Below are positions 34,993 to 60,234 of a stretch of DNA of 64,000 nucleotides, one piece after another. Position 1 is the first letter of the stretch; each line of letters begins with the position of its first letter. A program made the position numbers and the translations under genes. This DNA comes from Nitrospirales bacterium (GTDB lineage Bacteria > Nitrospirota > Nitrospiria > Nitrospirales > UBA8639). The stretch lies in the NCBI GenBank assembly GCA_031315865.1, contig JALDRJ010000002.1:3198001-3262000 (forward strand), given 5' to 3'. The notes beneath the pieces were generated by a model. It was not told the DNA's origin. It ran no database searches and saw only the letters and a list, made by a program, of their open reading frames with translations.

Positions 34993-35172
34993 GACGCTCA
35001 TTCCCTTCATTCAATAGGAGATAAATAATGCGTATCGGGATCGTTAGTACTCGTAGCCCATTATAGAGAAACGGCTTTCTCATGAACAACTGACCGGCGC
35101 GGCGTCAATCGGAACACTCAAATCATCCGATTGTGCACGATCGCGTGAAATGACCAGAAACGCACGAACATT

Positions 35173-35187
35173 TGGCACCCCAATTGC
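35173..35187 (+). promoter_or_regulatory. Sigma-54 promoter of the epimerase-pel operon
   Basis: TGGCAC-CCCAA-TTGC, an essentially perfect -24/-12 element with the obligatory GG-N10-GC spacing, preceded by T (TTGGCAC). The predicted start at about 35199 leaves an 18-nt leader whose AGGAGG (about 35200-35205) sits correctly before the ATG at 35217. Expression would therefore need RpoN and an AAA+ enhancer-binding activator. Upstream activator sites could lie in the 35011-35172 region. In Pseudomonas the pel genes are also controlled by an enhancer-binding protein (FleQ). Confidence 0.82.
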
Positions 35188-35216
35188 GAGATCACGCGTA
35201 GGAGGGCAAATGCCAG

Positions 35217-36140
35217 ATGCATGTTCTCGTGACAGGAGGGGCGGGGTTTATCGGTTCGCACTCGGTTGAAGCCTTATTGAATGCTGGAGCCTCAGTGCGA
35301 GTTTTGGACAATTTTTCAACCGGAACCCGGAAAAATTTGCCTAGCAACTCGTCGCTGGAGGTTTGTCACGGAGACATACAGAACTTGGCCGACATTGAAA
35401 ATGCGTTGTCCGATATCACCCATATCTTGCACTTGGCCGCTCAAGTTTCGGTGCAGGATTCCATCAATGATCCGACCAAATCTTGCGGGATCAATATTCA
35501 GGGTTTCGTCAACCTGTTGCAAGCCGCGAAAGCACAAGGAATTCACCGAATCGTCTATGCCTCGAGCGCCGCCGTATACGGACATCCTCATCGTCTGCCA
35601 CTCTCCGAAGACGATCCAGTCGCGCCGATTTCTCCCTATGGCCTTGAAAAGAGTGTTAATGATCAATATGCCGGACTTTTTCATGCGCTGTTTGGTCGCT
35701 CAACGCTTGGGCTTCGATATTTCAATGTGTATGGACCTCGTCAGGATCCCCGGTCTCCCTATGCCGGTGTCATCAGCAAATTTATGGACAACATGCGACA
35801 CCGACGTGCCCTCACCGTGTTTGGAGACGGGAAACAGACTCGTGATTTCGTATTCGTGAAAGATGTCGCTCAGTGCAATGTCCAGGCTCTCCAGGCAGAA
35901 ACAACGGGAGTTTGTCATGTCGCCACAGGGACGAGTCGAAGCCTCCTTGAAATGATTCAAGCGCTGTTCAACGTTATTGGCTATGAAGTCCCGGTTGTTT
36001 ATCAAGATGCGAAGTCCGGAGATATCCCACATTCTGCATCCCATGTCGAGAAGTTAGCTCTGACATTAAAAATGCCGTGTGCAACCCCGTTTGAGACAGG
36101 ACTGAGACTCCTCTGGGATCACGTGAATTCAGCTGAATAA
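35217..36140 (+). CDS. UDP-sugar 4-epimerase of the Pel locus (PelX-like)
   Basis: 307 residues. It is an extended short-chain dehydrogenase: TGGAGFIGS NAD-binding motif at the N terminus, DNFSTG and HLAAQVSV segments, the catalytic Ser in ASSAAVYG and YGLEK (YxxxK). LRYFNVYGPRQDP matches the GalE/WbpP-type C4-epimerase consensus. Pel polymer is rich in N-acetylgalactosamine, and some pel loci carry a UDP-GlcNAc 4-epimerase (PelX) to supply UDP-GalNAc; position as the first gene of the operon, 6 bp before pelA, supports that role. The sugar specificity is inferred from context, not from residues. Confidence 0.85.
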   Translation: MHVLVTGGAGFIGSHSVEALLNAGASVRVLDNFSTGTRKNLPSNSSLEVCHGDIQNLADIENALSDITHILHLAAQVSVQDSINDPTKSCGINIQGFVNLLQAAKAQGIHRIVYASSAAVYGHPHRLPLSEDDPVAPISPYGLEKSVNDQYAGLFHALFGRSTLGLRYFNVYGPRQDPRSPYAGVISKFMDNMRHRRALTVFGDGKQTRDFVFVKDVAQCNVQALQAETTGVCHVATGTSRSLLEMIQALFNVIGYEVPVVYQDAKSGDIPHSASHVEKLALTLKMPCATPFETGLRLLWDHVNSAE

Positions 36141-36146
36141 CGAATC

Positions 36147-38936
36147 ATGGGAATCCGTTCATACGCTCGTACATTGGGTCATGTCTTGTGCCTGCTTGGC
36201 CTGCTGAGTCTTCCCAATCATTTGGCTCTGGGGGCTGATCCAAGCGTCGCCTTCTATTACGGAAATCATGCCCCCCTCGATGAGTTGAAGGCCTTCGATG
36301 TCGTGGTGGTAGAACCTGATCATGGGTATGACCCGCAAGCCTATCGATCATCAAACAGCGAATTGTTTGCCTACGTCAGTTTGGGGGAATTTACGCCTTC
36401 ACGCAGCTACGCCCGGGAAATCCCGGACAGTTGGGTGTTAGGAAGCAATACACAGTGGGATTCTTCGATTATCGATCAACGACAAAACGAATGGGCCTCG
36501 TTTGCGGCAGATCGGATTATCGGGCCTCTGTGGAAACAAGGGTACCGAGGATTTTTTCTGGACACCCTTGATTCGTATCATCTCGTCGCACACACGCCTG
36601 AACAGAAAGCGCAACAGGAACATGGTCTTGCCAAGGTCATTCAATCGATCAAAGGCAGGTATCCAGAAGTCAAACTCATTCTCAATCGAGGGTTTGAAAT
36701 TCTACCTACCGTGGCCGAACACACATTCGCCGTGGCCGCTGAATCATTGTTTCGTGGCTGGGATCAGGGTCGCGCCCGGTACATTGAAGTCTCAGAAGTA
36801 GATCGTCAATGGTTGCTCGAGCAATTGCTGAACGTTCAACGAACCTATCAACTGCCAGTCATCGCCATCGATTATCTCCCGCCGCATCAGCGGCAGGCCG
36901 CCAGAAACGTTGCCCGACACATTCAACATCTTGGGATTATCCCTTGGGTGAGTACGCCTCAACTGGACATGATGGGTATCGGAGCCCTGGAGGTCATGCC
37001 AAGAAAAGTCCTGACCTTGTTCGATGGCGCGCACGATCCCGATCCGGAGCACAGCGACCTTCACCGGTTTCTGGATTTTCCGTTAAACCATCTGGGATAT
37101 ATCCCAGAACATCGAGACGTACGATCGTCCTTACCCGATTCGCCACTCATCGGTCGATACGCAGGGATTGTCCTGTGGGTTTCAGGAGACCGACATCCAT
37201 GGAGCCAAAGACTCTATCACTGGCTGTTGCGTCAGAAAGAGCAGGGTCTTCCAATCGTGATGTTTGATTCATTTGGCCTTCCTCTGGAGGAGCGATTCCT
37301 TTCAGCATTTCAACTTCAGCTCGGAACGACACGGCAGCCGACGGGGAACGTACGATTTTCGATCAAAGATCCACGCATCGGGTACGAGATTCAACCGATA
37401 CCGAAGCGACGAGAGTTTGTCCCGATCACGACCAAAGAAGGAATGACAATCCTTCAAGTGGAAACCGAAAGCGGGCAACAGCAAGACGTCATCTCCATCA
37501 CGCCATGGGGTGGATATGCTCTGTCCCCCTATACCGTGATTCAACTTCCAGGCCTCGAGCATTCTCGCTGGGTCTTTGATCCCATACAGTTTCTGCAAGA
37601 CACGTTACGCTTGCCGTCAATGCCCGTACCCGACACCACCACGCATAACGGTCGCCGGATATTATTGACTCACATCGATGGCGATGGATTTCCTAGCCTC
37701 GCGGAATTTCCGGGAAACTTCTATGCCGGAGAAGTGCTCTACCGGGAAATATTGCAGAAGTATCGTATTCCGACGACGGTTTCAGTGATCGAAGGCGAAG
37801 TCGGATCGACCGGTCTCTATCCAAACATCAGCAAACGGTTTGAAAAGACGGTCCGGGCGATGTTTGCCTTGGATCATGTGGAAATAGCCAGCCATTCATA
37901 TTCTCACCCTCTGAATTGGAGGGAATTTGTGATATCCGGGCCAAACCGACCGGGAGATTACAATCTCAACATTCCGAACTACGTGTACGGACCGGAAAGT
38001 TTGAGTCGTGAAATTCAAGGGTCTATCGAGTACATCAATGCCCATCTGGCCCCCCCAAACAAACGTGTTCAGGTGTTTTTATGGACCGGGGATTGTGACC
38101 CGGACGAAGAAGCCGTAGGCCTCACTTACGAGATGCAGGTTGGCAATATGAATGGCGGGGACACGATCATGACGAAGGAGAATAAGTCACTCACCGCGGT
38201 CACCGCATTCGGAATCAAGAAAGGGGAGCATTTTCAGATCTATGCTCCGAATCAGAATGAAAATTTGTATACCCATAGATGGACGGGGCCTTTCTACGGT
38301 TTTGAACGCGTGATCGAAACCTTTGAACTCACCGACCGCCCCAGGAGATTGAAACCCATTAACATCTATTTTCACACCTATTCAGGGAGTAAAAAGGCTT
38401 CACTCAACGCCTTGCACCGTGTCTATCGTTGGGCGTTGTCTCAAAAGATTAATCCCATTTACGCGTCCGACTATATCCAACGAATCCATGATTTCAACCG
38501 TGTCGTCGTCGCAAAGGCCGGTGAGACTTGGAACATTCGAGGAGCACAGCAGTTGCGCGAGCTACGCGTGCCCATATCCGCCGGATACCCGGACCTGTCA
38601 AAAAGCGTAGGAGTAACTGGATATTCTGATCATGAATCTCATCGATATATTCATCTCAACGATCCGAATGAGAGCATTATTCAATTCAGCCCCAAGCCAG
38701 CTGCGCTACCATATCTTCGCGAAACCAATGGGGAAATATTGGCATGGGCGAGAACCAATGAAAGCATTCACCTCACGATCAAGTCCTATCTCCCCCTGGT
38801 GGTCTCACTCGGGAATACCAAACATTGTCAGGTATTGACTAAGGGAACACGCGTAAAAAACCGACAAGAAGGGAAAGTATTCAACCTTTTTGTTGAACAA
38901 CGACGTGAAAAACCCATCAGCCTTACATGTTCTTAG
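36147..38936 (+). CDS. pelA: PelA: bifunctional Pel polysaccharide hydrolase/deacetylase
   Basis: 929 residues (Pseudomonas PelA is about 950). A signal peptide is followed by the GH114/GH166-like TIM-barrel domain (about 30-275: VAFYYGNHAPLDELKAFDVV, GYRGFFLDTLDSY), with Glu199 in AAESLF the candidate acid. A middle Rossmann-like region follows. The deacetylase domain has THIDGDGF (Asp511, Asp513) and SHSYSHP (His583, His587), matching the metal/catalytic Asp and two His of PelA. Periplasmic PelA trims and partly deacetylates the polymer, giving it positive charge. It overlaps the pelB frame by 47 bp. Confidence 0.93.
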   Translation: MGIRSYARTLGHVLCLLGLLSLPNHLALGADPSVAFYYGNHAPLDELKAFDVVVVEPDHGYDPQAYRSSNSELFAYVSLGEFTPSRSYAREIPDSWVLGSNTQWDSSIIDQRQNEWASFAADRIIGPLWKQGYRGFFLDTLDSYHLVAHTPEQKAQQEHGLAKVIQSIKGRYPEVKLILNRGFEILPTVAEHTFAVAAESLFRGWDQGRARYIEVSEVDRQWLLEQLLNVQRTYQLPVIAIDYLPPHQRQAARNVARHIQHLGIIPWVSTPQLDMMGIGALEVMPRKVLTLFDGAHDPDPEHSDLHRFLDFPLNHLGYIPEHRDVRSSLPDSPLIGRYAGIVLWVSGDRHPWSQRLYHWLLRQKEQGLPIVMFDSFGLPLEERFLSAFQLQLGTTRQPTGNVRFSIKDPRIGYEIQPIPKRREFVPITTKEGMTILQVETESGQQQDVISITPWGGYALSPYTVIQLPGLEHSRWVFDPIQFLQDTLRLPSMPVPDTTTHNGRRILLTHIDGDGFPSLAEFPGNFYAGEVLYREILQKYRIPTTVSVIEGEVGSTGLYPNISKRFEKTVRAMFALDHVEIASHSYSHPLNWREFVISGPNRPGDYNLNIPNYVYGPESLSREIQGSIEYINAHLAPPNKRVQVFLWTGDCDPDEEAVGLTYEMQVGNMNGGDTIMTKENKSLTAVTAFGIKKGEHFQIYAPNQNENLYTHRWTGPFYGFERVIETFELTDRPRRLKPINIYFHTYSGSKKASLNALHRVYRWALSQKINPIYASDYIQRIHDFNRVVVAKAGETWNIRGAQQLRELRVPISAGYPDLSKSVGVTGYSDHESHRYIHLNDPNESIIQFSPKPAALPYLRETNGEILAWARTNESIHLTIKSYLPLVVSLGNTKHCQVLTKGTRVKNRQEGKVFNLFVEQRREKPISLTCS

Positions 38937-41900
38937 GCAATCGGATCGCCAATCCAAGGAACGGTTGTTTTCACTATGGTCTATCTTGTTATTCGCTGTT
39001 GGAATCGTCTTCGTCCTCATGACGTTATTCCCGAAGCAACGGATTTTCAATCAGGTCGCCCAGGCAAACCAGGCTTCTACTGTGAGCACGTTTTTTTTGG
39101 AGAACCTACTTCGGGCCAGGCCGGATGATGCCGATCTTCGTTTGCTTCTTGCGCATCATTATTTGGAAGTCGGACAGATCACTCAGGCGCAGACAACATT
39201 GACGCAACTTTTGGACAGTACTCAGGATGATGTATGGCTCAAGGCACGATTGCTTGCACTACGCCTGCAAAAGATTCGAACTCTGGCGCTTCCGGAAGGA
39301 TCTCTCCAACGCCAGAATGGTATGGGACAACTTCGGGACCAGATTCACGTGATGATCTCTTCCGGGCATTCACTCCAGACAAAAGTCCTGACTCAACTTG
39401 CGCAGTCGGCGCAATTAATCGGAGAGCCTGAGCTTGCGCAAATGCTGTATGAACGGCTGGGGACGCAATCTGAGCCTCAATCGTCGGCGTGGTTTGCTAA
39501 GGCAGCCGGACTGGCATTGGAACGAAGTGCCTATAAACAGGCTGCATCCTTGTATTTTTCCGCACTGCGTTATGCACAAACCCAGCAAGAGAAAAAAGCC
39601 TATTACATGGCAGCACTTAAAGTCCTGCAAGCGGGAAATTTTTTGGCAGAGGCCATTCAGCAAGCTCAAACGCATCTGGAAGACGTGAACCAGGATGAAG
39701 AAATATTGTTGTTTTTAATCGCGCTTGGTCGAGCGGCTGGGAATGGTGCGTTTGCTCAAAAATACGTAAAAGACCTCCTGCGGATTGCATTCGTCCCTAC
39801 TACTGGACATGTGATCCCCACAAGATATGAACCCAAAAGTCAGGAAGCAACGCATTCATGGATCTTCGCTCCAACCGCTTCAAATATGCACATGGACTCC
39901 CGAACAGAACGTTGGAGGACAACATACGGACGCCGTGAGTATCGATGGCTTACGAACAGCCAGCCATCCCATCAACATCCCGCGCTGCGTCCATTCGATG
40001 ATCGAATTTATTCGCTGGCCTATACCGTTTTCCTCGAGAATCAGAACCTTCAGGATGCCTTTGCTCTCGCGCAGGCGGCTGTCCAGCAAGCCCCTCAACG
40101 ATTGACGTGGAGAAAACGGTTGGCACAGGTCGCGGAATGGACTGGTCGGCAGGATGTCGCACTTGCACAATGGCGATTCATGGCCGAGCGAAACCCAAGT
40201 ATCGCATCGTTTGAGCAAATTCTTCGTTTAGCCCCCGGTGCGTGGAATGACGCGCAGGTAATTTTTTCATTGTTGGGGCTAGGGAAAATTCGCTCCTTGT
40301 CTGATGAAGAATGGCATAGGCTAATCGATGCATTTGAACGAGAGGGACAACCAAAGCAGGCCATCGCGTATCTCACTCACCTCAACCAACAATCACCCGC
40401 TCGCCCCCTCCTTGAGGCCATCGCCGTCCTGTACCGGCGGATGGGGAAAAACGATCAGGCTTACGAGTCCTATCGCATCTTGGAAAACCTGTACGGGAAA
40501 AATATCCGGTGGGCAATGGAGCAGGCTAACCTGCTCGTCCGTCGTGGTGACTTGCGTGGCGCCTACGACGTGTTGCGACAGGACATGAGCCTGGCTCAGC
40601 CGAATGATCTGGACTTTTGGAAACTATTAGGGCATGTGGCCTGGACGCTGGAAGAAGATCAACAGGCGGAAGATGCGTATCGCCAGTTGTGGACTCACCG
40701 GGAATTATCAGCGACAGGCCAAGAGCGGTTGATTCTGTTAGCCCGGCAAAGCAGACCGTTTGAAGCGATCGATATCGGCTTGGCGGGATGGAGGAATACC
40801 CATAGTCCCAGGTTTTTACTTCAAGCCTTGGATTTGTTGTTACAAGAGAAAAAGCACCAAGAAATTCAAGCGATCTTGAACGGATTACTGCCCTGGGAGG
40901 AAAAACTGGTCGCTCAGAACGAACGGTATTGGGTCATCCGCGCTGAAGTCATGGCTAAAATGGGGCAGCCAGAGGAAGGTCTTCACGCCTATCAACGAGC
41001 CTTAGCGCTCAATCCTGAATCCAGTGAGATCAAAGAAGCCTTTTTATGGTTCCTTATCGATCAGAACGACCGGGTGGAGCTGGAATTATCTGTCAACGAT
41101 TGGCGGGACATGGCCGAACAGGACCCACGCCTCTGGGGAGCGATGGCGGCTGCCTACATGGTCCTTGATCGTCCCAAACCGGCGCTTCCCTATTTCGTCC
41201 GTCAACTGAAACACAACCAGCATGATTACCTCTGGCTCCTCAATTATGCCAGCGCGTTGGAAGCCTCATCCTACACGGCATTAGCGTGGAAGGTTCGTCA
41301 ACATGCATGGCTTGGCGTGCGTCAACGCCTGCTCACGACTCCACCGGAAGAACATGCACCTCACATGCGAGAAGCCTACGCCATGCTCGCGAATGTCAAA
41401 GACCCGGGTGACGCGCTTCTTGAACTTTTTCGTCAAGAAGACATCCATCGCACGTCGCGCACATCGCCCGTCATGAAAGAGTTAGTCCTGTCATGGCTGC
41501 TCTCACAAGAAGCCTTCGACGCGGCCAAGATGTGGCTTTGGAAAAACTATGCACGCCGTATGACGGCCCCCGGATGGGCGGAACTCGCCATCGCGCTCGA
41601 GGACAACGATTGGGAATCGATCCATGCCATCGTCACCCGCCACACCAAGACATTATCACGATCTGACAACATTGAGGCGGCCAGCCGTCTCGACCGTCTG
41701 ACACTCGCACAAACCCTGGCCTTCGACTCCATGAGTCGCGACCCAGACAATACCGTGGCCCATGTTCAATATCAGGAAGCTATCAAATTCGCCGTCGATC
41801 AAATCACCTCTCGCATCATGTTTGAAGATCGTCGTCCACTATCGAGTTATGCGTGGAAGACAGCCATTCCCATTCAGCTTGGCAGAATGGAGGTTCGTCC

Positions 41901-42711
41901 GGAAGCCTCGGTTACCTGGCAAACGAGTACTGACGCCTCGGCGTTTTCCGGCGTCCCCCATGTCGATCGTCAAATCGGCGCATCCGTTGGATACCGGCGT
42001 CCTTCCATGTTTCTCCGGCTTACAGGATTTCAACGAAGCGCAGTATCGAACTTTTGGGGTGTAGGAATGATGTATGAACAAGCGTGGAACGACCATTTTT
42101 CATCAATCCTCACGCTTGGGCGCAATTACAAAGCTGATGACTCGATTGCGTTGCAAGTCGGAGGCGTCAAGGATTTCATCAGGGGACAGGGCCTGTATTA
42201 TTTTTCTAAACGACAGTTTGTGTCGCTTCAGTTGGATGCGCCATGGTTTTTCACGCAATCCCGTGACGCCCTCGGGCACGCTCTAGGCGTCGAAGGCGCG
42301 CTTGGCCATCACCTTCGACGAGAATACCCAGACGTAACCGTACGAGTCACCGGGAATGTCCGGCGATATTGGCGAGTCAACACTCTTCCCGCGAGCATTC
42401 GCCCCATATTCCCTGGCAACCAACCTCTGACATCCGATCTCGTCGTTCCAAGAGAATTTTCCCAGTTGGGCATAAATCTCAGCTTCGGCGATTCCATTCG
42501 AGATGTGTATACCAAAGGAATCCGGCCGTTCGGATTACTCGGAGCGAACCATAACAGTACAAACGGATTTGGCTATAGCGTGGAAGCTGGAATGGCAGCC
42601 CGGTTACTGGGACAAGACCGATTGGTGCTGTTCGGTAGTCATATCCGCGGTGGGTTTGGGCAGAATGCGAAGACCACCCAAATGAACCTGGAATATCAAC
42701 GTTGGTTTTAA
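38890..42711 (+). CDS. pelB: PelB-like outer-membrane exporter with TPR scaffold
   Basis: 1273 residues (Pseudomonas PelB about 1190). One inner-membrane helix (LWSILLFAVGIVFVLMTLF, about 28-46), a long periplasmic alpha-helical region of many TPR-type repeats (about 70-920), and a C-terminal beta-barrel (about 960-1273) ending in the aromatic YQRWF that outer-membrane proteins use for BAM recognition. The barrel part has alternating strands such as ASVTWQTSTDASAF and ASVGYRRPSMFLRLTGF. The start is uncertain: TTG 38890 or GTG 38905, both inside pelA. PelB guides the polymer, localises PelA and forms the exit pore with PelC. Confidence 0.9.
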   Translation: MLNNDVKNPSALHVLRQSDRQSKERLFSLWSILLFAVGIVFVLMTLFPKQRIFNQVAQANQASTVSTFFLENLLRARPDDADLRLLLAHHYLEVGQITQAQTTLTQLLDSTQDDVWLKARLLALRLQKIRTLALPEGSLQRQNGMGQLRDQIHVMISSGHSLQTKVLTQLAQSAQLIGEPELAQMLYERLGTQSEPQSSAWFAKAAGLALERSAYKQAASLYFSALRYAQTQQEKKAYYMAALKVLQAGNFLAEAIQQAQTHLEDVNQDEEILLFLIALGRAAGNGAFAQKYVKDLLRIAFVPTTGHVIPTRYEPKSQEATHSWIFAPTASNMHMDSRTERWRTTYGRREYRWLTNSQPSHQHPALRPFDDRIYSLAYTVFLENQNLQDAFALAQAAVQQAPQRLTWRKRLAQVAEWTGRQDVALAQWRFMAERNPSIASFEQILRLAPGAWNDAQVIFSLLGLGKIRSLSDEEWHRLIDAFEREGQPKQAIAYLTHLNQQSPARPLLEAIAVLYRRMGKNDQAYESYRILENLYGKNIRWAMEQANLLVRRGDLRGAYDVLRQDMSLAQPNDLDFWKLLGHVAWTLEEDQQAEDAYRQLWTHRELSATGQERLILLARQSRPFEAIDIGLAGWRNTHSPRFLLQALDLLLQEKKHQEIQAILNGLLPWEEKLVAQNERYWVIRAEVMAKMGQPEEGLHAYQRALALNPESSEIKEAFLWFLIDQNDRVELELSVNDWRDMAEQDPRLWGAMAAAYMVLDRPKPALPYFVRQLKHNQHDYLWLLNYASALEASSYTALAWKVRQHAWLGVRQRLLTTPPEEHAPHMREAYAMLANVKDPGDALLELFRQEDIHRTSRTSPVMKELVLSWLLSQEAFDAAKMWLWKNYARRMTAPGWAELAIALEDNDWESIHAIVTRHTKTLSRSDNIEAASRLDRLTLAQTLAFDSMSRDPDNTVAHVQYQEAIKFAVDQITSRIMFEDRRPLSSYAWKTAIPIQLGRMEVRPEASVTWQTSTDASAFSGVPHVDRQIGASVGYRRPSMFLRLTGFQRSAVSNFWGVGMMYEQAWNDHFSSILTLGRNYKADDSIALQVGGVKDFIRGQGLYYFSKRQFVSLQLDAPWFFTQSRDALGHALGVEGALGHHLRREYPDVTVRVTGNVRRYWRVNTLPASIRPIFPGNQPLTSDLVVPREFSQLGINLSFGDSIRDVYTKGIRPFGLLGANHNSTNGFGYSVEAGMAARLLGQDRLVLFGSHIRGGFGQNAKTTQMNLEYQRWF

Positions 42712-42727
42712 CGACAAGGGTGACAAG

Positions 42728-43252
42728 ATGAAAAACACAGGATGCTTCATGATGAGTCTAGCGTGTCTGTTTGTGGTGAGCTGTACGGCCATCGATCATT
42801 CCCAGAGTCCTATACTTGATCAACAGGCATCATGGGCTCTCCTTCCCATCCTGAACTACACCGAAACGCCACAAGCCGGCCGGCGCGCCGAATCGATCAC
42901 CTCGGCGCTCCTTCATAGCCGGGGGCTGCAACAAGTTCAGCAGTATCCATCGAATCTTCAGGATGGGGCGTCGGTTCTGGGATCCGATCATCAACTGTAT
43001 GACTCGGCCCTCGCTTGGGCCAAGAAACAAAACATTCGGTATGGGATAACCGGGACCGTCGATGAATGGCGGTACAAAGTCGGCATTGACGGCGAACCGG
43101 CAGTCGGCGTCAGCCTGCGATTGATCGACTTGAAGACCGATCAAGTCGTGTGGAGCGCTGTCGGCGGTCAAACCGGTTGGAGTCGAGAGGCCGTCAGTGC
43201 CGTGGCTCAAAAGCTGATCAAGCGTCTTCTTGATGAAGTCACGTTGAGCTAA
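42728..43252 (+). CDS. pelC: PelC-like outer-membrane lipoprotein
   Basis: 174 residues (Pseudomonas PelC 172). The lipobox VVSC gives Cys19 after a hydrophobic signal. The mature part has an N-terminal strand WALLPILNYTETPQAGRRA (the 'lP..n.s....g...' start of the PelC/TolB-N-like fold) and ends with SLRLIDLKTDQVVWSAVGGQ. PelC forms a dodecameric ring that funnels polymer into PelB. It begins 16 bp after pelB, and its stop overlaps pelD by one base (TAATG). Confidence 0.88.
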   Translation: MKNTGCFMMSLACLFVVSCTAIDHSQSPILDQQASWALLPILNYTETPQAGRRAESITSALLHSRGLQQVQQYPSNLQDGASVLGSDHQLYDSALAWAKKQNIRYGITGTVDEWRYKVGIDGEPAVGVSLRLIDLKTDQVVWSAVGGQTGWSREAVSAVAQKLIKRLLDEVTLS

Positions 43253-44601
43253 TGCGCCTTCCTTTTCATTTACGAGCCGTCCCGAAACCATGGCAATGGG
43301 TGGAAACCTGTGTCTTAACCGGTGTCGTCTTGGCAGCCAATCATTGGTTCTCGCCGGGTGATCCGTTTCTCATCACGACCGCATTTCCTTGGATTTGGCT
43401 CATTACCCTGCTTTTGGCGCTGCGGTATGGAACGTGGGCGGGCTTGTTGTCTTCAGGCATAATTTTGAGCGCCCTATTTCTTGAAATGCGACTCGGCCAT
43501 CTTGCCGATGCTGCCATCCCCAAAGTCTACATCATTGGAGGCGTCCTGTTTATCGCGATTAGCGGAGAATTCGGGAGTCGGTGGAACATGTACCTCAAAC
43601 AGATGGAAGAACGGAACGATTATCTGGATCAACGTTTACAGGAAACTGCCCGTGCGTACCATTTACTCGGGGTTTCTCATCATCGTCTCGAAGAACATTT
43701 AGTCAGTCAACCCTTGACGCTTCGCGATGCCTTGAAACGTTTGCGTGGCATGTTACGGGAAGGCGACGAGGAAGTTCCTGTGGCGGCGGCGGAACGCCTC
43801 ATCCAACTGTTGACGCAATTTTTCCAATTGGAAATGGCCGGGCTCTTTCGATCGATCGAACCGAACCTCGAAGGCAGACCGATGGCTACGGTCGGAGCGA
43901 TGGGACCGCTCGCCAGCGATGATCCATTAGTCCATCATGCCAGAACCAGCAAAGCATTTTCTCATGTCATGATGGACGGATCGGTCTCCGTCTTGAACAC
44001 CCAGTACCTGATCGCCGCTCCGGCGATGGCGAGCACAGGATTGATCGTTGGCTGGTTGGTGGTCGAGCGCATGCGTTTCTTAAACCTCCACGAAGAGAGT
44101 TTGCGCATGTTAAAGATTTTCTTGAATTACTTCGCCGACGGGTTTCAAACGGCTGTGCTTGCACGCCCCATCCTTGAAGCATTTCCCGACTGTCCCGTCA
44201 CGTTCGCCCGCGAATTGCCACGATTAGTCCATTTGCAATATGAACTGGGCCTCGATAGCCGGGTCGTCGTGTTTGACGTGAATGGCCCGACGATGCGGGA
44301 AGAAATCGTCTTTCATATTCTTCACCATACGCGAGGCTTAGATGTCGCCTGGGACATGCGCCATGAAGAAACTCGTCGTCTTTGTATCCTGCTTCCCTTC
44401 TCTGATGATGCGGCGATTGAAGGCTACCTCGCCCGTATTCAACAGCTCCTGCGTGAACGTTTCGGCAAAGGGTTTGAGGAGGCAGAGATCCAGGTCAGTG
44501 TTCGAAGTTTACACGAACCGAATCCTTCCACCATTGTTCAAGATTTGATCGTCGGAAATTATGATCGCAAGAATGTTTCTGTGCTTAGCGGTGTTGCTTG
44601 A
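43252..44601 (+). CDS. pelD: PelD: inner-membrane c-di-GMP receptor (GAF plus degenerate GGDEF)
   Basis: 449 residues (Pseudomonas 455). Four N-terminal membrane helices (about 17-115), a short coiled coil (WNMYLKQMEERNDYLDQRLQ), a GAF domain (about 160-320) and a C-terminal GGDEF-like domain. The inhibitory-site motif RGLD (Arg361, Asp364) is intact and stands exactly five residues before RHEET (370-374), which replaces the GGDEF active site. This is the arrangement by which PelD binds c-di-GMP without making it. It is therefore predicted to activate the PelF/PelG synthase when c-di-GMP is high. Confidence 0.92.
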   Translation: MRLPFHLRAVPKPWQWVETCVLTGVVLAANHWFSPGDPFLITTAFPWIWLITLLLALRYGTWAGLLSSGIILSALFLEMRLGHLADAAIPKVYIIGGVLFIAISGEFGSRWNMYLKQMEERNDYLDQRLQETARAYHLLGVSHHRLEEHLVSQPLTLRDALKRLRGMLREGDEEVPVAAAERLIQLLTQFFQLEMAGLFRSIEPNLEGRPMATVGAMGPLASDDPLVHHARTSKAFSHVMMDGSVSVLNTQYLIAAPAMASTGLIVGWLVVERMRFLNLHEESLRMLKIFLNYFADGFQTAVLARPILEAFPDCPVTFARELPRLVHLQYELGLDSRVVVFDVNGPTMREEIVFHILHHTRGLDVAWDMRHEETRRLCILLPFSDDAAIEGYLARIQQLLRERFGKGFEEAEIQVSVRSLHEPNPSTIVQDLIVGNYDRKNVSVLSGVA

Positions 44602-45619
44602 AGGCGGCGTCCTTCCCCTCCTTCTCTTCCACGAGCAATACCACGGAGATTGGAAAGGACTGCTCCTTCTCCATGGCCTGACAAGTATCGCCGTGGGGCT
44701 GTTGGGATGGGACAGTCTTCCGCGGACGTACCGGCGCAATCCAATAGTCGTCATCCTGTTTTTCACGGTCCTGTCGTTGTTTATTCCGATGCTCGGAGCG
44801 ATTGGCGTTCTCGCGCTCGTGCTTCTGACACATTTCACCACCGTGAAAAAAGACCACGCCCAGATTCAAGAACTGCCTGACTCTTATTTTTCCGGAACGG
44901 GCAATTTGGATTTCAGTCAATATGGGCGAGGAGATCTTCATTCACGATTTCAAACGGCAGCTCTTCGCACGGAAGCGCGATTAGATGCATTGGGGAAACT
45001 TCAAGGGTTTGAGACGCATCAGATTCGCTCCACGGTACGTCAAGCCTTACAGGATCAAACCGATGATGTTCGACTCGTGGCGTTTGGCATTCTCGACAAG
45101 AAAGAAAAGTCGATCAATGAACGGATCAACCGCGAACTAGAATGGTATCAACAGTGCAGGGAGAACCAGGAGAAGCTAACCCATGCACGCGAATTGGCCT
45201 ATGCATACTGGGAACTGGTCTACAAAGATGTCGTTGAAGGCGATATCTTACTGTATGCCCTGGGCAAGGCCGAATATTACAATACGGTGGTCCTAACCGC
45301 ACGTCCATCCGATGCAGGCATGTGGGCCTTGAAGGGACAGATTTTACTTCGTGCGCATAGGAGTGAGGAAGCGCACACGGCATTCACCAACGCCCGTGAC
45401 CACGGTATTCCAGATACGCGCGTGCTTCCCTATTTAGCCGAGCTCGCTTTTTTGCGCAAGGATTTCTCAGAATTGTCCGGACTGTTTCAGCGGGGACAGA
45501 GGTTGTCAGAAGTCCCGGTATTAAAACCCGTGATACGATACTGGACTTCGATGCCAACGCCTGCTCCTGAGACCATGGTCCTCTCGTCACATCCCGACAG
45601 CCACTCGGCAAGGGTTTAA
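44561..45619 (+). CDS. pelE: PelE-like inner-membrane TPR protein
   Basis: 352 residues (Pseudomonas 329). Three hydrophobic segments at the N terminus (about 4-23, 36-53, 62-84) and a cytoplasmic helical TPR-like part (about 130-340, for example LREL-type AYAYWELVYKDVVEGD and WALKGQILLRAHRSEEAHTA). It overlaps the 3' end of pelD by 41 bp. PelE associates with PelD and PelG in the synthase complex. Sequence similarity to characterised PelE is low; identity rests mainly on topology, size and locus position. Confidence 0.85.
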   Translation: MIARMFLCLAVLLEGGVLPLLLFHEQYHGDWKGLLLLHGLTSIAVGLLGWDSLPRTYRRNPIVVILFFTVLSLFIPMLGAIGVLALVLLTHFTTVKKDHAQIQELPDSYFSGTGNLDFSQYGRGDLHSRFQTAALRTEARLDALGKLQGFETHQIRSTVRQALQDQTDDVRLVAFGILDKKEKSINERINRELEWYQQCRENQEKLTHARELAYAYWELVYKDVVEGDILLYALGKAEYYNTVVLTARPSDAGMWALKGQILLRAHRSEEAHTAFTNARDHGIPDTRVLPYLAELAFLRKDFSELSGLFQRGQRLSEVPVLKPVIRYWTSMPTPAPETMVLSSHPDSHSARV

Positions 45620-45676: not shown

Positions 45677-47239
45677 TTGATTGATAAGAAGATGACCTCG
45701 CCGCAAGCCGATGAAGTCGACATCGCCCTCCTGCTCGAAGGGACTTATCCCTACGTGAGTGGCGGCGTATCGAGTTGGGTTCACCAAATCATTCAAGCAT
45801 TTCCGGAATTCCGGTTTGGGCTGGTGTTCATCGGCGGTCATCCGGGTGAATATGGCGACATGCGCTACGTCTTACCCGAGCACGTGGTACATCTCGAAGC
45901 TCATTATGTCCACGCGAATCATGATCAACCCCCAATCAAACCGGTTGAAGGGGACACGCACGTATTCCGTTTTATCGATGAACTTCATACAGCGATGAGA
46001 GCGCCAGAATCATGCCCTCATGCCGTCGATCTCACGCAACAGATGCTGGCATTGCTGACCACATGCCCTGAAGCATTGCAGGAGCAATTTTTGTATAGCG
46101 AACCTGCCTGGGATTTCCTGTGCCAGACCTATCGCAGACATTGCACCGACCCATCCTTTGTCGATTTTTTCTGGACAGTCCGAAAGATGCATGAACCGAT
46201 CTGGATGTTAGGGAAGGTGGCGGCCAGTCTGATACCAGCCAAAGTCTATCATACGGTCTCCACAGGCTATGCGGGATTTCTTGGAGCCTTACTGCATCAT
46301 CGAACCGGACGCCCACTTATCCTCTCTGAACATGGAATTTATACAAAGGAACGTCGAATCGATCTCTTTCAAATGACGTCCTTTCGCGATAACCGGTCAT
46401 TGATTGAAAAACGCGCCGATCATCTTGGCTATTTTCAACAGCTCTGGATTCGGTTTTTTGAGATTCTGGGGACGCTCTGCTACGACGCAGCCAATCCCAT
46501 CATTTCCCTGTATGAAGTGAATCGCCAACGTCAGATTCATGATGGTGCGGATGAACGGCGCACACTGACCATCCCGAACGGGATTCCGGTGGAACGATTC
46601 GAACCGCTTCGAGCTTCTCGCCCATCACATCCCCCTCCCATTCTTTGTCTCATCGGTCGCGTGGTTCCCATCAAAGACGTCAAGACATTTATCCGGGCCA
46701 TGCGAACGGTGGTCAACCGTATGCCCGAAGCTCAAGGCTGGATCGCCGGTCCTGAGGATGAAGACAAGGACTATGTCCAGGATTGTAAACATCTCACGGA
46801 AAGCTTGGGACTCACTCAACATGTCAGGTTTATGGGATTCCAGAACGTTCATGAACTGTTACCACAGATCGGCCTACTGATCCTGAGCTCCATCAGTGAA
46901 GCCCTTCCCTTAGTTGTACTCGAAGGATTTGCGGCTGGCGTACCCGCCGTCACGACGGATGTCGGCGCTTGTCGCCAGCTGATCGAAGGGGAAGGCATCT
47001 TGAAAGATCAAGCCGGCCGCGCCGGAGCCGTCGTCAGCATGGCAAATCCGACCGCCTTAGCCGAAGCGGCGTTATCTCTTTTAACGGATACGGATGCCTG
47101 GCGCGCCGCGCAGAAAGCCGGCATCACACGGGTCGAATCTTTCTACACACAAAGACAGATGATCGATCACTACCGTTCTATTTACGCAAAGGCCCTCGAA
47201 ACATGGCAGGCATTGGCTTTGAGCTCCGCAAGATCTTAA
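45677..47239 (+). CDS. pelF: PelF glycosyltransferase (GT4)
   Basis: 520 residues from TTG 45677, or 515 from ATG 45692 (MTSPQADEVDIALLLEG), which fits the family start better. The PelF signature EGTYPYVSGGVSSWVHQII is present. The donor site has ILCLIGRVVPIKDVKTFI (Arg, Lys), and the EX7E motif lies in SEALPLVVLEGFAAGVP. LSEHGIYTKERRID is another family segment. It is a cytosolic transferase using UDP-linked N-acetylhexosamine to build the polymer, acting with PelD, PelE and PelG. It overlaps pelG by 37 bp. Confidence 0.96.
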   Translation: MIDKKMTSPQADEVDIALLLEGTYPYVSGGVSSWVHQIIQAFPEFRFGLVFIGGHPGEYGDMRYVLPEHVVHLEAHYVHANHDQPPIKPVEGDTHVFRFIDELHTAMRAPESCPHAVDLTQQMLALLTTCPEALQEQFLYSEPAWDFLCQTYRRHCTDPSFVDFFWTVRKMHEPIWMLGKVAASLIPAKVYHTVSTGYAGFLGALLHHRTGRPLILSEHGIYTKERRIDLFQMTSFRDNRSLIEKRADHLGYFQQLWIRFFEILGTLCYDAANPIISLYEVNRQRQIHDGADERRTLTIPNGIPVERFEPLRASRPSHPPPILCLIGRVVPIKDVKTFIRAMRTVVNRMPEAQGWIAGPEDEDKDYVQDCKHLTESLGLTQHVRFMGFQNVHELLPQIGLLILSSISEALPLVVLEGFAAGVPAVTTDVGACRQLIEGEGILKDQAGRAGAVVSMANPTALAEAALSLLTDTDAWRAAQKAGITRVESFYTQRQMIDHYRSIYAKALETWQALALSSARS

Positions 47240-48573
47240 AAAAAGATAGTTACTGGTCGCTACTCAAAGCCTATGCGTATGCGGGTGTGATCAGTTCCGG
47301 GCCATGGATTCTCTCTATCATCGGCATCCTGGTGATTGGTGTCATGAGCCTATCGGTCGTGGCGCCGGAAACGCTGATTATCCAGTTTCAACTCTCGGTC
47401 ACGTACCTCATCGCTTTGAGTCTCATCTTGACTGGATGTTTGCAAACATCGTTCACACGATATGTCGCCGATCGTCTATATGAAAAGCGAGACGATTTAG
47501 TCTTAAGCAACTTTCACGGGGTCCTCTGCCTGGTCACGATCGTGTGCGGAGTCGGAGCCACGGGACTGATCATCTGGCTGTTTCCAGAACAGAGTCTCTT
47601 GTACAAGGTGCTCATGATCGGCAGTTTTGTCGTGTTAGGAAATATCTGGATCGCGACGATCTTCTTGTCAAGCATGAAGGAATACAAGGCAGTATTGCTG
47701 TTATATGCCTCGGGCTATGGACTAACGGTCGGAGCGGCATTGGCCTTCCGGTCATTCGGACTGGAGGGGCTGTTATTCGGGTTCTTTATAGGGCAATTTT
47801 TTATTTTGGTGGGCATGCTCGCCCTCACGGTACGCAATTATGCATCGGAAACCTTATTAGCCTGGGACTTTTTGAAAAGAGGACGGATGTATACGAGCTT
47901 GATCTGGCTTGGATTGGTGTATAACTTGGCCATCTGGGTCGACAAATTCTTATTTTGGTACTATCCGGAAACCAGTCAGATCGTGATTGGACCGATTCGA
48001 AACTCTCCAATCTATGATTTGCCGATTTTTTTAGCCTATTTATCGATTTTACCGGGAATGGCCAGTTTTCTGGTCCGCATGGAAACCGATTTCGTCGAGC
48101 GGTACCAGGAATTTTATGACGCGATCCGGGGAGGGGCGACATTAGGTCATATCCAACATGCCAAAAATGAAATGGTCCGCACGATCCGGCTGGGACTCTT
48201 TGAAATCATGAAAATTCAGTTTGTCGTCTCGTTACTCATATGGGCAATCGGCCCACCGATTCTTCGCTGGCTCGAAATTTCTGAACTGTATGAATCGCTA
48301 CTCTACGTGGATATCGTGGCGGCGGGTTTGCAAGTGTTATTTTTAGGCATCATGAATGTGTTTTTCTATCTTGATAAACGGTTGATTGCATTGGGACTTT
48401 CTAGCTTATTTCTTGTCACGAACGTGACACTGTCAGCCTGGTCACTGTACATGGGCTTACCCTATTATGGGTATGGGTTTGCCATTTCCTTGCTCGTAGT
48501 CGTGATGTTTGGCATGTATCTTCTGGACAAGAAACTTCAGAAATTGGAGTATGAAACGTTCATGCTTCAATAG
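47203..48573 (+). CDS. pelG: PelG: inner-membrane transporter of the Pel synthase
   Basis: 456 residues from the ATG giving MAGIGFELRKILKKDSYWSL, exactly the length of Pseudomonas PelG. A longer open frame exists, but its N-terminal part is antisense-like noise inside pelF. About 12 membrane helices in the MOP/flippase style (for example SSGPWILSIIGILVIGVMSL). The conserved opening GFELRK and the DLPIFLAYLSILPGMASFLV segment are characteristic. It is thought to move the growing chain across the inner membrane. It is the last gene of the operon, followed by a hairpin terminator. Confidence 0.96.
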   Translation: MAGIGFELRKILKKDSYWSLLKAYAYAGVISSGPWILSIIGILVIGVMSLSVVAPETLIIQFQLSVTYLIALSLILTGCLQTSFTRYVADRLYEKRDDLVLSNFHGVLCLVTIVCGVGATGLIIWLFPEQSLLYKVLMIGSFVVLGNIWIATIFLSSMKEYKAVLLLYASGYGLTVGAALAFRSFGLEGLLFGFFIGQFFILVGMLALTVRNYASETLLAWDFLKRGRMYTSLIWLGLVYNLAIWVDKFLFWYYPETSQIVIGPIRNSPIYDLPIFLAYLSILPGMASFLVRMETDFVERYQEFYDAIRGGATLGHIQHAKNEMVRTIRLGLFEIMKIQFVVSLLIWAIGPPILRWLEISELYESLLYVDIVAAGLQVLFLGIMNVFFYLDKRLIALGLSSLFLVTNVTLSAWSLYMGLPYYGYGFAISLLVVVMFGMYLLDKKLQKLEYETFMLQ

Positions 48574-48691: not shown

Positions 48692-48724
48692 GAATGTTCG
48701 TTGAGGAACATTCCTATTTTTTTT
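48692..48724 (+). terminator. Rho-independent terminator of the pel operon
   Basis: An 8-bp perfect stem GAATGTTC / GAACATTC with a GTTGAG loop, then CTA and eight T residues (48717-48724). It lies 119 bp after pelG. Confidence 0.8.
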
Positions 48725-53268: not shown

Positions 53269-53509
53269 CTGAGCTCTAGCTGCTTAGGCTATTGCAACCG
53301 GGGAAAGGCTTGCCCTAACAGAATGCAGCTTTTCGACTTAAGCCTTTCTTCATCGCCAACGGATCTAATTCCACCATCTATCCTACGTAAAACAGCTTCA
53401 GAGACGGTACTTTTTCGATGTGAATCCCTGCAATTTGAAGATGAGTTACCATATGGCAGAACAGCAAAAACTTTTGGCACTGCTATTGCTTTCATCATGG
53501 AATTTGTAG

Positions 53510-59323: not shown

Positions 59324-59372
59324 CGTCGAAATTCCTATATTAAAGACTTAAGGGACCACCTGTTAAACAGAT

Positions 59373-59406
59373 GCCTATCTTCCCAAACGGGAAGGTGGGC
59401 TTTTTT
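59373..59406 (+). terminator. Rho-independent terminator of the YtxH unit
   Basis: A 12-bp stem, GCCTATCTTCCC pairing with GGGAAGGTGGGC (two G-U pairs), AAAC tetraloop, followed by six T residues. It lies 50 bp after the 60-aa gene. An ATG at 59371 within this hairpin is therefore not the start of the downstream gene. Confidence 0.88.
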
Positions 59407-59471
59407 GTGCAAAAAATCAAGATTCCGATGTTCAATTTGGCGTGCTCATTAACAATCAATCATAACAAGGA

Positions 59472-59486
59472 GGTAAACAGTTTACC
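59472..59486 (+). promoter_or_regulatory. Dyad overlapping the ribosome-binding site of the PEP-CTERM gene
   Basis: GGTAAAC-A-GTTTACC is a perfect 7-bp inverted repeat. Its first GG is the end of the AAGGAGG site (59467-59473) and its last C is 1 nt before the ATG region (59488). As RNA it can form a 5-bp hairpin that shortens or masks the spacing; as DNA it resembles a dimer operator. Confidence 0.45.
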
Positions 59487-59487
59487 A

Positions 59488-60234
59488 ATGGGTATTATCA
59501 GTCAAAGCAGACGTTCCCTTTGGGGATGCGTGTCAGTCGCAGTTATCAGTATGTTTGTTCTGGTGGACAATGCACAGGCTGTGTCGATGCTTCGATTATC
59601 GAGCTCACAGGGTGGCTCGGTAACCGTGACCGATCAAGGTGCGAACGATGATAATAGCAATGTGGGCGTGACGGAATTCGATGGATCGCTCACAGGATGG
59701 AACGTGAACATCACGACCGGCATCACGCATCCAGTATTAGGGTCAAGTCTCTCACCAGAGTTTGACTTGAATAGTGTCAATGTTTCGCAATCGGCGGGAA
59801 CGCTGACGATTGCGTTTACTGAGACAGATTTCGGGAATAGTTCGGCGTTTGCTGGCGGCGGTGGATTTTTCGCTGCCATTGGTGGGACGACGGTCGGGAC
59901 CGTGTCCTATCAAACCTACCTGGATAGTGCCAATACGCCTTTTGCTCAAACGACGCTGTTAGGAAACGTTGGGCCATTCGGGACCAACGCCTTTTCCGGG
60001 ACAGATTCAGGCTCGTTTGCAGGATTGAACGCGCCCTTTTCCCTGACCTCAGTGGTGACCATTACGCATAGTGGGGCTGGGATTTCGTCGTTCGATGCCA
60101 ATCGGTCTTTGACCGGAACACCCGGAGGAGCTCCTGTTCCAGAGCCATCGAGCATGTTGTTGCTTGGGTCTGGTCTCCTGGGGTTAGGTTATTGGCGTTG
60201 GAATAAGAAAAAAGAAACAGCGACAAAAGAGTAA
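59488..60234 (+). CDS. PEP-CTERM protein, function unknown
   Basis: 248 residues from ATG 59488 (AAGGAGG 14 nt upstream); the upstream ATG 59371 lies in the terminator hairpin of the preceding unit and is rejected. Signal peptide CVSVAVISMFVLVDNAQA. The mature part is Gly/Ser/Thr-rich and beta-type with no Cys (SQGGSVTVTDQGANDDNSNV, GGGGFFAAIGGTTVGTVSYQ), and carries no recognised enzyme domain. C-terminal tail PVPEPSSMLLLGSGLLGLGY, then RWNKKK, a textbook PEP-CTERM signal. It is a likely matrix or surface protein. Similar extracellular-appearing PEP-CTERM proteins are usual partners of exopolysaccharide. A strong terminator follows. Confidence 0.92.
   Translation: MGIISQSRRSLWGCVSVAVISMFVLVDNAQAVSMLRLSSSQGGSVTVTDQGANDDNSNVGVTEFDGSLTGWNVNITTGITHPVLGSSLSPEFDLNSVNVSQSAGTLTIAFTETDFGNSSAFAGGGGFFAAIGGTTVGTVSYQTYLDSANTPFAQTTLLGNVGPFGTNAFSGTDSGSFAGLNAPFSLTSVVTITHSGAGISSFDANRSLTGTPGGAPVPEPSSMLLLGSGLLGLGYWRWNKKKETATKE

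Follow-up and report, generated by a model that had tools for sequence, protein, structure and literature searches.

The epimerase-pel operon of a marine member of the order Nitrospirales is very likely headed by a real and conserved sigma-54 (-24/-12) promoter, as judged from comparison with related genomes. The host genome is 3.78 Mb in two contigs; the operon lies in a 64-kb stretch which was analysed as a whole and is referred to here as the window. The promoter element, TGGCACCCCAATTGC, matches TGGCA[C/T]-N5-TTGC exactly. Its GG is at 35174-35175 and its GC at 35186-35187, with exactly N10 between them; the sigma-54 element with exact GG-N10-GC spacing claimed in an earlier note on this DNA can thus be read directly from the sequence. 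The end of the element is 29 nt from the ATG of the epimerase gene. The earlier note had also placed the element 18 nt before the ribosome-binding site. This distance is in fact 12 nt (from the end of the -12 GC to AGGAGG), and 18 nt is the length of the leader between the predicted transcription start and the ATG. Features of the region are listed in Table 1.

Table 1. Features of the epimerase-pel region, by position in the window
Feature	Position	Strand	Evidence
Divergent sigma-70 promoter of DUF3386 gene, TTGTTC-N18-TATAAT	35060..35090	-	Retained in several genera within the family
AGAA-N6-TTCT dyad, conceivable activator site some 125 nt before the predicted start	35067..35080	.	Kept in five g1 genomes
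Sigma-54 (-24/-12) promoter element	35173..35187	+	Matches the consensus exactly; G041 and five g1 genomes keep its position and defining bases
Predicted transcription start, 12 nt past the -12 GC	35199	+	Inferred from standard sigma-54 promoter geometry
AGGAGG ribosome-binding site	35200..35205	+	Read directly; SD-like stretch in relatives too
NAD-dependent epimerase, PelX-like (probable UDP-GlcNAc C4-epimerase), 307 residues	35217..36140	+	PF01370 1.2e-59; best solved relatives 6wjb/6wj9
pelA	36147..38936	+	GH114 and weak polysaccharide deacetylase matches; collinear orthologues
pelB, coordinates from the earliest possible start codon (actual start may lie further in)	38890..42711	+	TPR; PelB C-terminal barrel PF24604 1.5e-48
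pelC, named by position/orthology	42728..43252	+	No Pfam match; adjoins pelB in relatives too
pelD, intact c-di-GMP motifs	43252..44601	+	PF16963 3.8e-31; alignment to solved PelD
pelE, named by position/orthology	44561..45619	+	No Pfam match; matches in distant pel operons
pelF glycosyltransferase	45677..47239	+	DUF3492 and glycosyl transferase group 1
pelG (listed ORF from 46969; ATG 47203 more likely)	47203..48573	+	PF16933 4e-157 from residue 79 of long ORF
Intrinsic terminator after pelG	48692..48713	+	Stem-loop and T run

Pattern matching alone is weak evidence for the pel element. The strict pattern has two exact matches on both strands of the window, and matches with up to two mismatches number 59 against 51.9 (sd 7.1) in shuffled sequence; one exact match therefore proves little. 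Across the whole genome the picture is stronger. TGGCAY-N5-TTGC occurs 37 times, 3.4 times as often as a reversed control pattern (11 matches), and the strict pattern occurs 221 times over five genomes of the same genus, against 70 for the reversed control. Most of the inspected genomic sites (21 of 30) fall outside ORFs of at least 100 aa. Genes behind such sites encode FliL, a flagellar rod/hook-family protein, two PEP-CTERM proteins, a TadE-type protein, an RpoD-like sigma factor, OmpA, a universal stress protein and response regulators. Flagellar genes such as fliL and rod/hook genes, PEP-CTERM genes and pilin-type genes are frequent sigma-54 targets. The genome has one rpoN gene (PF04552, 1.6e-59). 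It also has NtrC-family regulators, a search for which had been proposed in the earlier note: there are 28 matches to the sigma-54 activator domain, 23 of them with a GAFTGA-type loop. Given the sigma factor, the activators, the excess of sites, their intergenic placement and the genes downstream, the genome very probably does use RpoN promoters of exactly this form.

The second exact match in the window (53475-53489) lies 20 nt before a GCS2-like ORF (53510). It is absent in two relatives which have the GCS2-like gene, G001 and G003, and by this comparison is probably a chance or lineage-specific match. Elsewhere in the genome, identical sigma-54-like elements with near-identical leaders precede two 71-aa ORFs about 1.2 kb apart (L069 and L070, G000:C2:2190479 and 2191643), with a TadE gene nearby; these are probable duplicated pilin genes under RpoN. 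An exact -24/-12 match is also found 24 nt upstream of the gene for the RpoD-like sigma factor (L057, G000:C2:1128944).

Conservation carries the case for the pel element. Five genomes of the host's genus (g1) were compared: that of the window itself (G000) and G001, G002, G003 and G004. TGGCAT-N5-TTGC precedes the epimerase-pel operon in all four of the others (4/4), although G001 and G003 are so closely related that they amount to almost a single case in this comparison. The distance from the element to the start of the orthologous epimerase gene is 29, 29, 27, 28 and 28 nt in G000 to G004 respectively, and in G041, a genome from another genus, the same pattern lies 26 nt before the epimerase start. 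When four g1 genomes are aligned on the element, pairwise identity is 0.95 for the ten defining bases, 0.53 for the spacer and 0.30-0.33 for the flanks. Selection, by this alignment, has preserved just those bases which sigma-54 recognises, and its footprint is clean. The element is thus more than a chance match, since its defining bases and its distance have been conserved while spacer and flanks drifted. Conservation, the rpoN gene and the genome-wide excess of sites strongly support a functional sigma-54 promoter, as the earlier note had proposed; its description as driving the Pel operon covers only part of the element's history, as the lone epimerase of G041 (see below) indicates.

The gene order behind the element is epimerase-pelABCDEFG. 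The intergenic gaps are 6, -47, 16, -1, -41 and 57 nt, and pelF and pelG overlap with the listed pelG start. The set pelA-pelG is complete and collinear; profiles identify A, B, D, F and G, and C and E are named from position and orthology. Terminator-like sites inside the operon number 19 against 15.7 expected, which is a background level. The claim that the epimerase gene is followed by pelA-G without internal terminators agrees with this count, with gaps of at most 57 nt and with the terminator which follows pelG. The closest PDB matches of the epimerase are 6wjb and 6wj9, which we take to be PelX of Pseudomonas protegens. PelX is a UDP-GlcNAc C4-epimerase required for Pel (PMC9135694). In PelD, the RGLD motif (residue 361) and a second arginine, in GYLAR, align with the c-di-GMP-binding residues of the solved PelD (R367xxD370 and R402 in P. 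aeruginosa), and these motifs are kept in three relatives. Retention of both motifs agrees with the role of c-di-GMP receptor which the earlier note gave to PelD, and a post-translational c-di-GMP input through PelD is supported at this level.

A mechanism can be proposed on this basis. RNA polymerase carrying RpoN would bind the element as a closed complex which stays silent until it is opened. An NtrC-family enhancer-binding ATPase would open it; RpoN dependence is presumed here, as are the existence and place of an enhancer. The transcript would start near the predicted position and presumably run as one message through the PelX-like epimerase gene and pelABCDEFG as far as the terminator. 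UDP-GalNAc would come from the epimerase, and PelD, presumably by binding c-di-GMP, would gate polymerisation. Two-layer control of this kind, by enhancer-dependent transcription and by PelD, is plausible and is consistent with cases such as BerB/Bep in Burkholderia.

It should be considered whether the element is a promoter at all. Near matches would be plentiful in any 64 kb and one could stand before a gene by luck; their number in the window is at the shuffle level, and the second exact match is not conserved in G001 or G003. The pel element, however, is conserved base by base at a fixed distance among relatives whose flanks are only about 30% identical. A chance match is very improbable and was rejected because of this conservation. 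Accepting a sigma-54 promoter, it may be active in one condition only, with basal pel expression coming from an undetected sigma-70 or ECF promoter. Such arrangements are known from other sigma-54 operons: in Burkholderia cenocepacia, putative -35/-10 elements lie before the RpoN site of berA (PMC5552954). No sigma-70-like match was found upstream of the epimerase gene on the + strand, which speaks against a dual promoter, but this search would miss non-consensus promoters; on balance a second promoter is unlikely.

The distribution of the element outside the genus raises another possibility. In G041 the element stands before a lone epimerase gene (L109:16976-17896). The DUF3386 gene is its neighbour there as well, and no pel genes follow. 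G038 and G039 have a lone epimerase gene at the same place without the element, and G020 has epimerase-pel elsewhere in its genome, also without it. In G094 and G132, which belong to a more distant family, the pel operons have another gene order and no epimerase, and there is no exact element in the stretch just upstream. RpoN control of epimerase-pel is thus not universal, as judged from G020, G038 and G039. By the same comparison the element goes with the epimerase no less than with pel: counting G041, it precedes epimerase genes in two genera, and in one of these pel follows. The promoter could therefore have been conserved for the epimerase, as sugar-nucleotide supply, with pel having joined later or been lost elsewhere, and being transcribed from it only in g1 or partly from other promoters. 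The lone epimerases of G041, G038 and G039 favour this. Against it, pelA starts 6 nt past the epimerase stop, so that read-through is expected, and there is no good + strand sigma-70 site before pelA. Such a purpose is rather doubtful, and it modifies the reading of a sigma-54 promoter heading epimerase-pel without contradicting it. A further idea, tentative and less likely than not, is that the whole pel operon was added behind an epimerase gene which was already under RpoN control, the element before the lone epimerase of G041 being the ancestral state. In that case a single enhancer-dependent sigma-54 promoter would now couple the supply of the precursor to the synthesis of the polymer, and c-di-GMP would act as a gate of its own.

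The activator that would serve the epimerase-pel promoter was sought in several ways. There is no activator gene within the 64-kb window; the nearest candidate (L016) is about 30 kb past its right end. The LFRS motif of FleQ-type c-di-GMP-binding regulators is absent from all activators in the genome, and a c-di-GMP-binding activator like FleQ or BerB was rejected for this reason. PrsR is present (TIGR02915, 613 bits; cut-off 503). Its motif 1, which ends in TTTACA and lies some 60 nt upstream of -24/-12, is absent before pel and before two PEP-CTERM genes; PrsR was therefore rejected as the pel activator acting through this published motif. PEP-CTERM genes were noted at L054, at L060 and in the window at 59371-60234; two are behind sigma-54-like sites, and the TTTACA motif, which is proteobacterial, is absent there.

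Comparison of activator profiles across genomes gave no usable candidate. L005 was considered by phylogenetic profile, being present in G002, G004 (sampled partly) and G041 and absent in G039. It was set aside as not discriminating: the gene is near-universal in the family, and none was found in G001 although the element is present there. L005 (G000:C2:3041764-3043215) is a family-wide NtrC-type regulator with GAFTDA instead of GAFTGA; it is divergent from a universal stress protein gene which has an exact -24/-12 site.

Binding sites upstream of the element were looked for as well, as the earlier note had proposed. No inverted repeat upstream of pel is common to all species, and no conserved activator-binding site was found between the divergent DUF3386 promoter and the element. 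The only upstream block that is conserved is the DUF3386 promoter, with the AGAA-N6-TTCT dyad in its spacer. The dyad is shared within g1, but it occurs in g1 only and does not recur before the other sigma-54-like sites that were inspected. The DUF3386 promoter is itself conserved in genera which do not have pel beside it. It is conceivable that the dyad is an activator site.

Regulation of pel is known mainly from Pseudomonas, where FleQ works with sigma-70. FleQ at pel is a sigma-70-dependent repressor/activator and is not known to act through a -24/-12 promoter. The Nitrospirales operon would share with it NtrC-family control of pel transcription, as proposed here, and PelD as c-di-GMP receptor. 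The open-access literature searched, coverage of which was incomplete, yielded no description of a -24/-12 promoter at pel.

Sigma-54 is associated with other matrix systems. In B. cenocepacia, BerB, RpoN and BerA control the Bep exopolysaccharide, and an RpoN site (TGGCACGTAAATCGCT) precedes berA (PMC5552954). On the reading proposed here, both cases bring RpoN and c-di-GMP together at a biofilm polysaccharide. In Burkholderia, however, the RpoN promoter drives the regulator gene berA and the activator BerB binds c-di-GMP, whereas here the element directly heads the synthesis operon and the genome has no FleQ-type LFRS activator. The PEP-CTERM/PrsK-PrsR regulon has -24/-12 promoters for matrix-associated genes (PMC1569441, PMC9850573). 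The present genome resembles it in having PrsR and two PEP-CTERM genes behind sigma-54-like sites, and differs in the missing motif 1. The fap amyloid operon of Pseudomonas fluorescens has an RpoN -24/-12 promoter, and its activator BrfA is encoded beside it (PMC9207406). There RpoN directly drives a biofilm-matrix operon, as it would here, but the product is an amyloid and the activator gene is adjacent, whereas here the product is a polysaccharide and the window holds no activator gene.

The pel promoter is a solid but fairly ordinary regulatory case. It fits a general proposal by which sigma-54 controls the exterior of the cell (PMC3162934). If the reading is true, biofilm formation in this Nitrospirales group would answer to the signal of a sigma-54 activator as well as to c-di-GMP.
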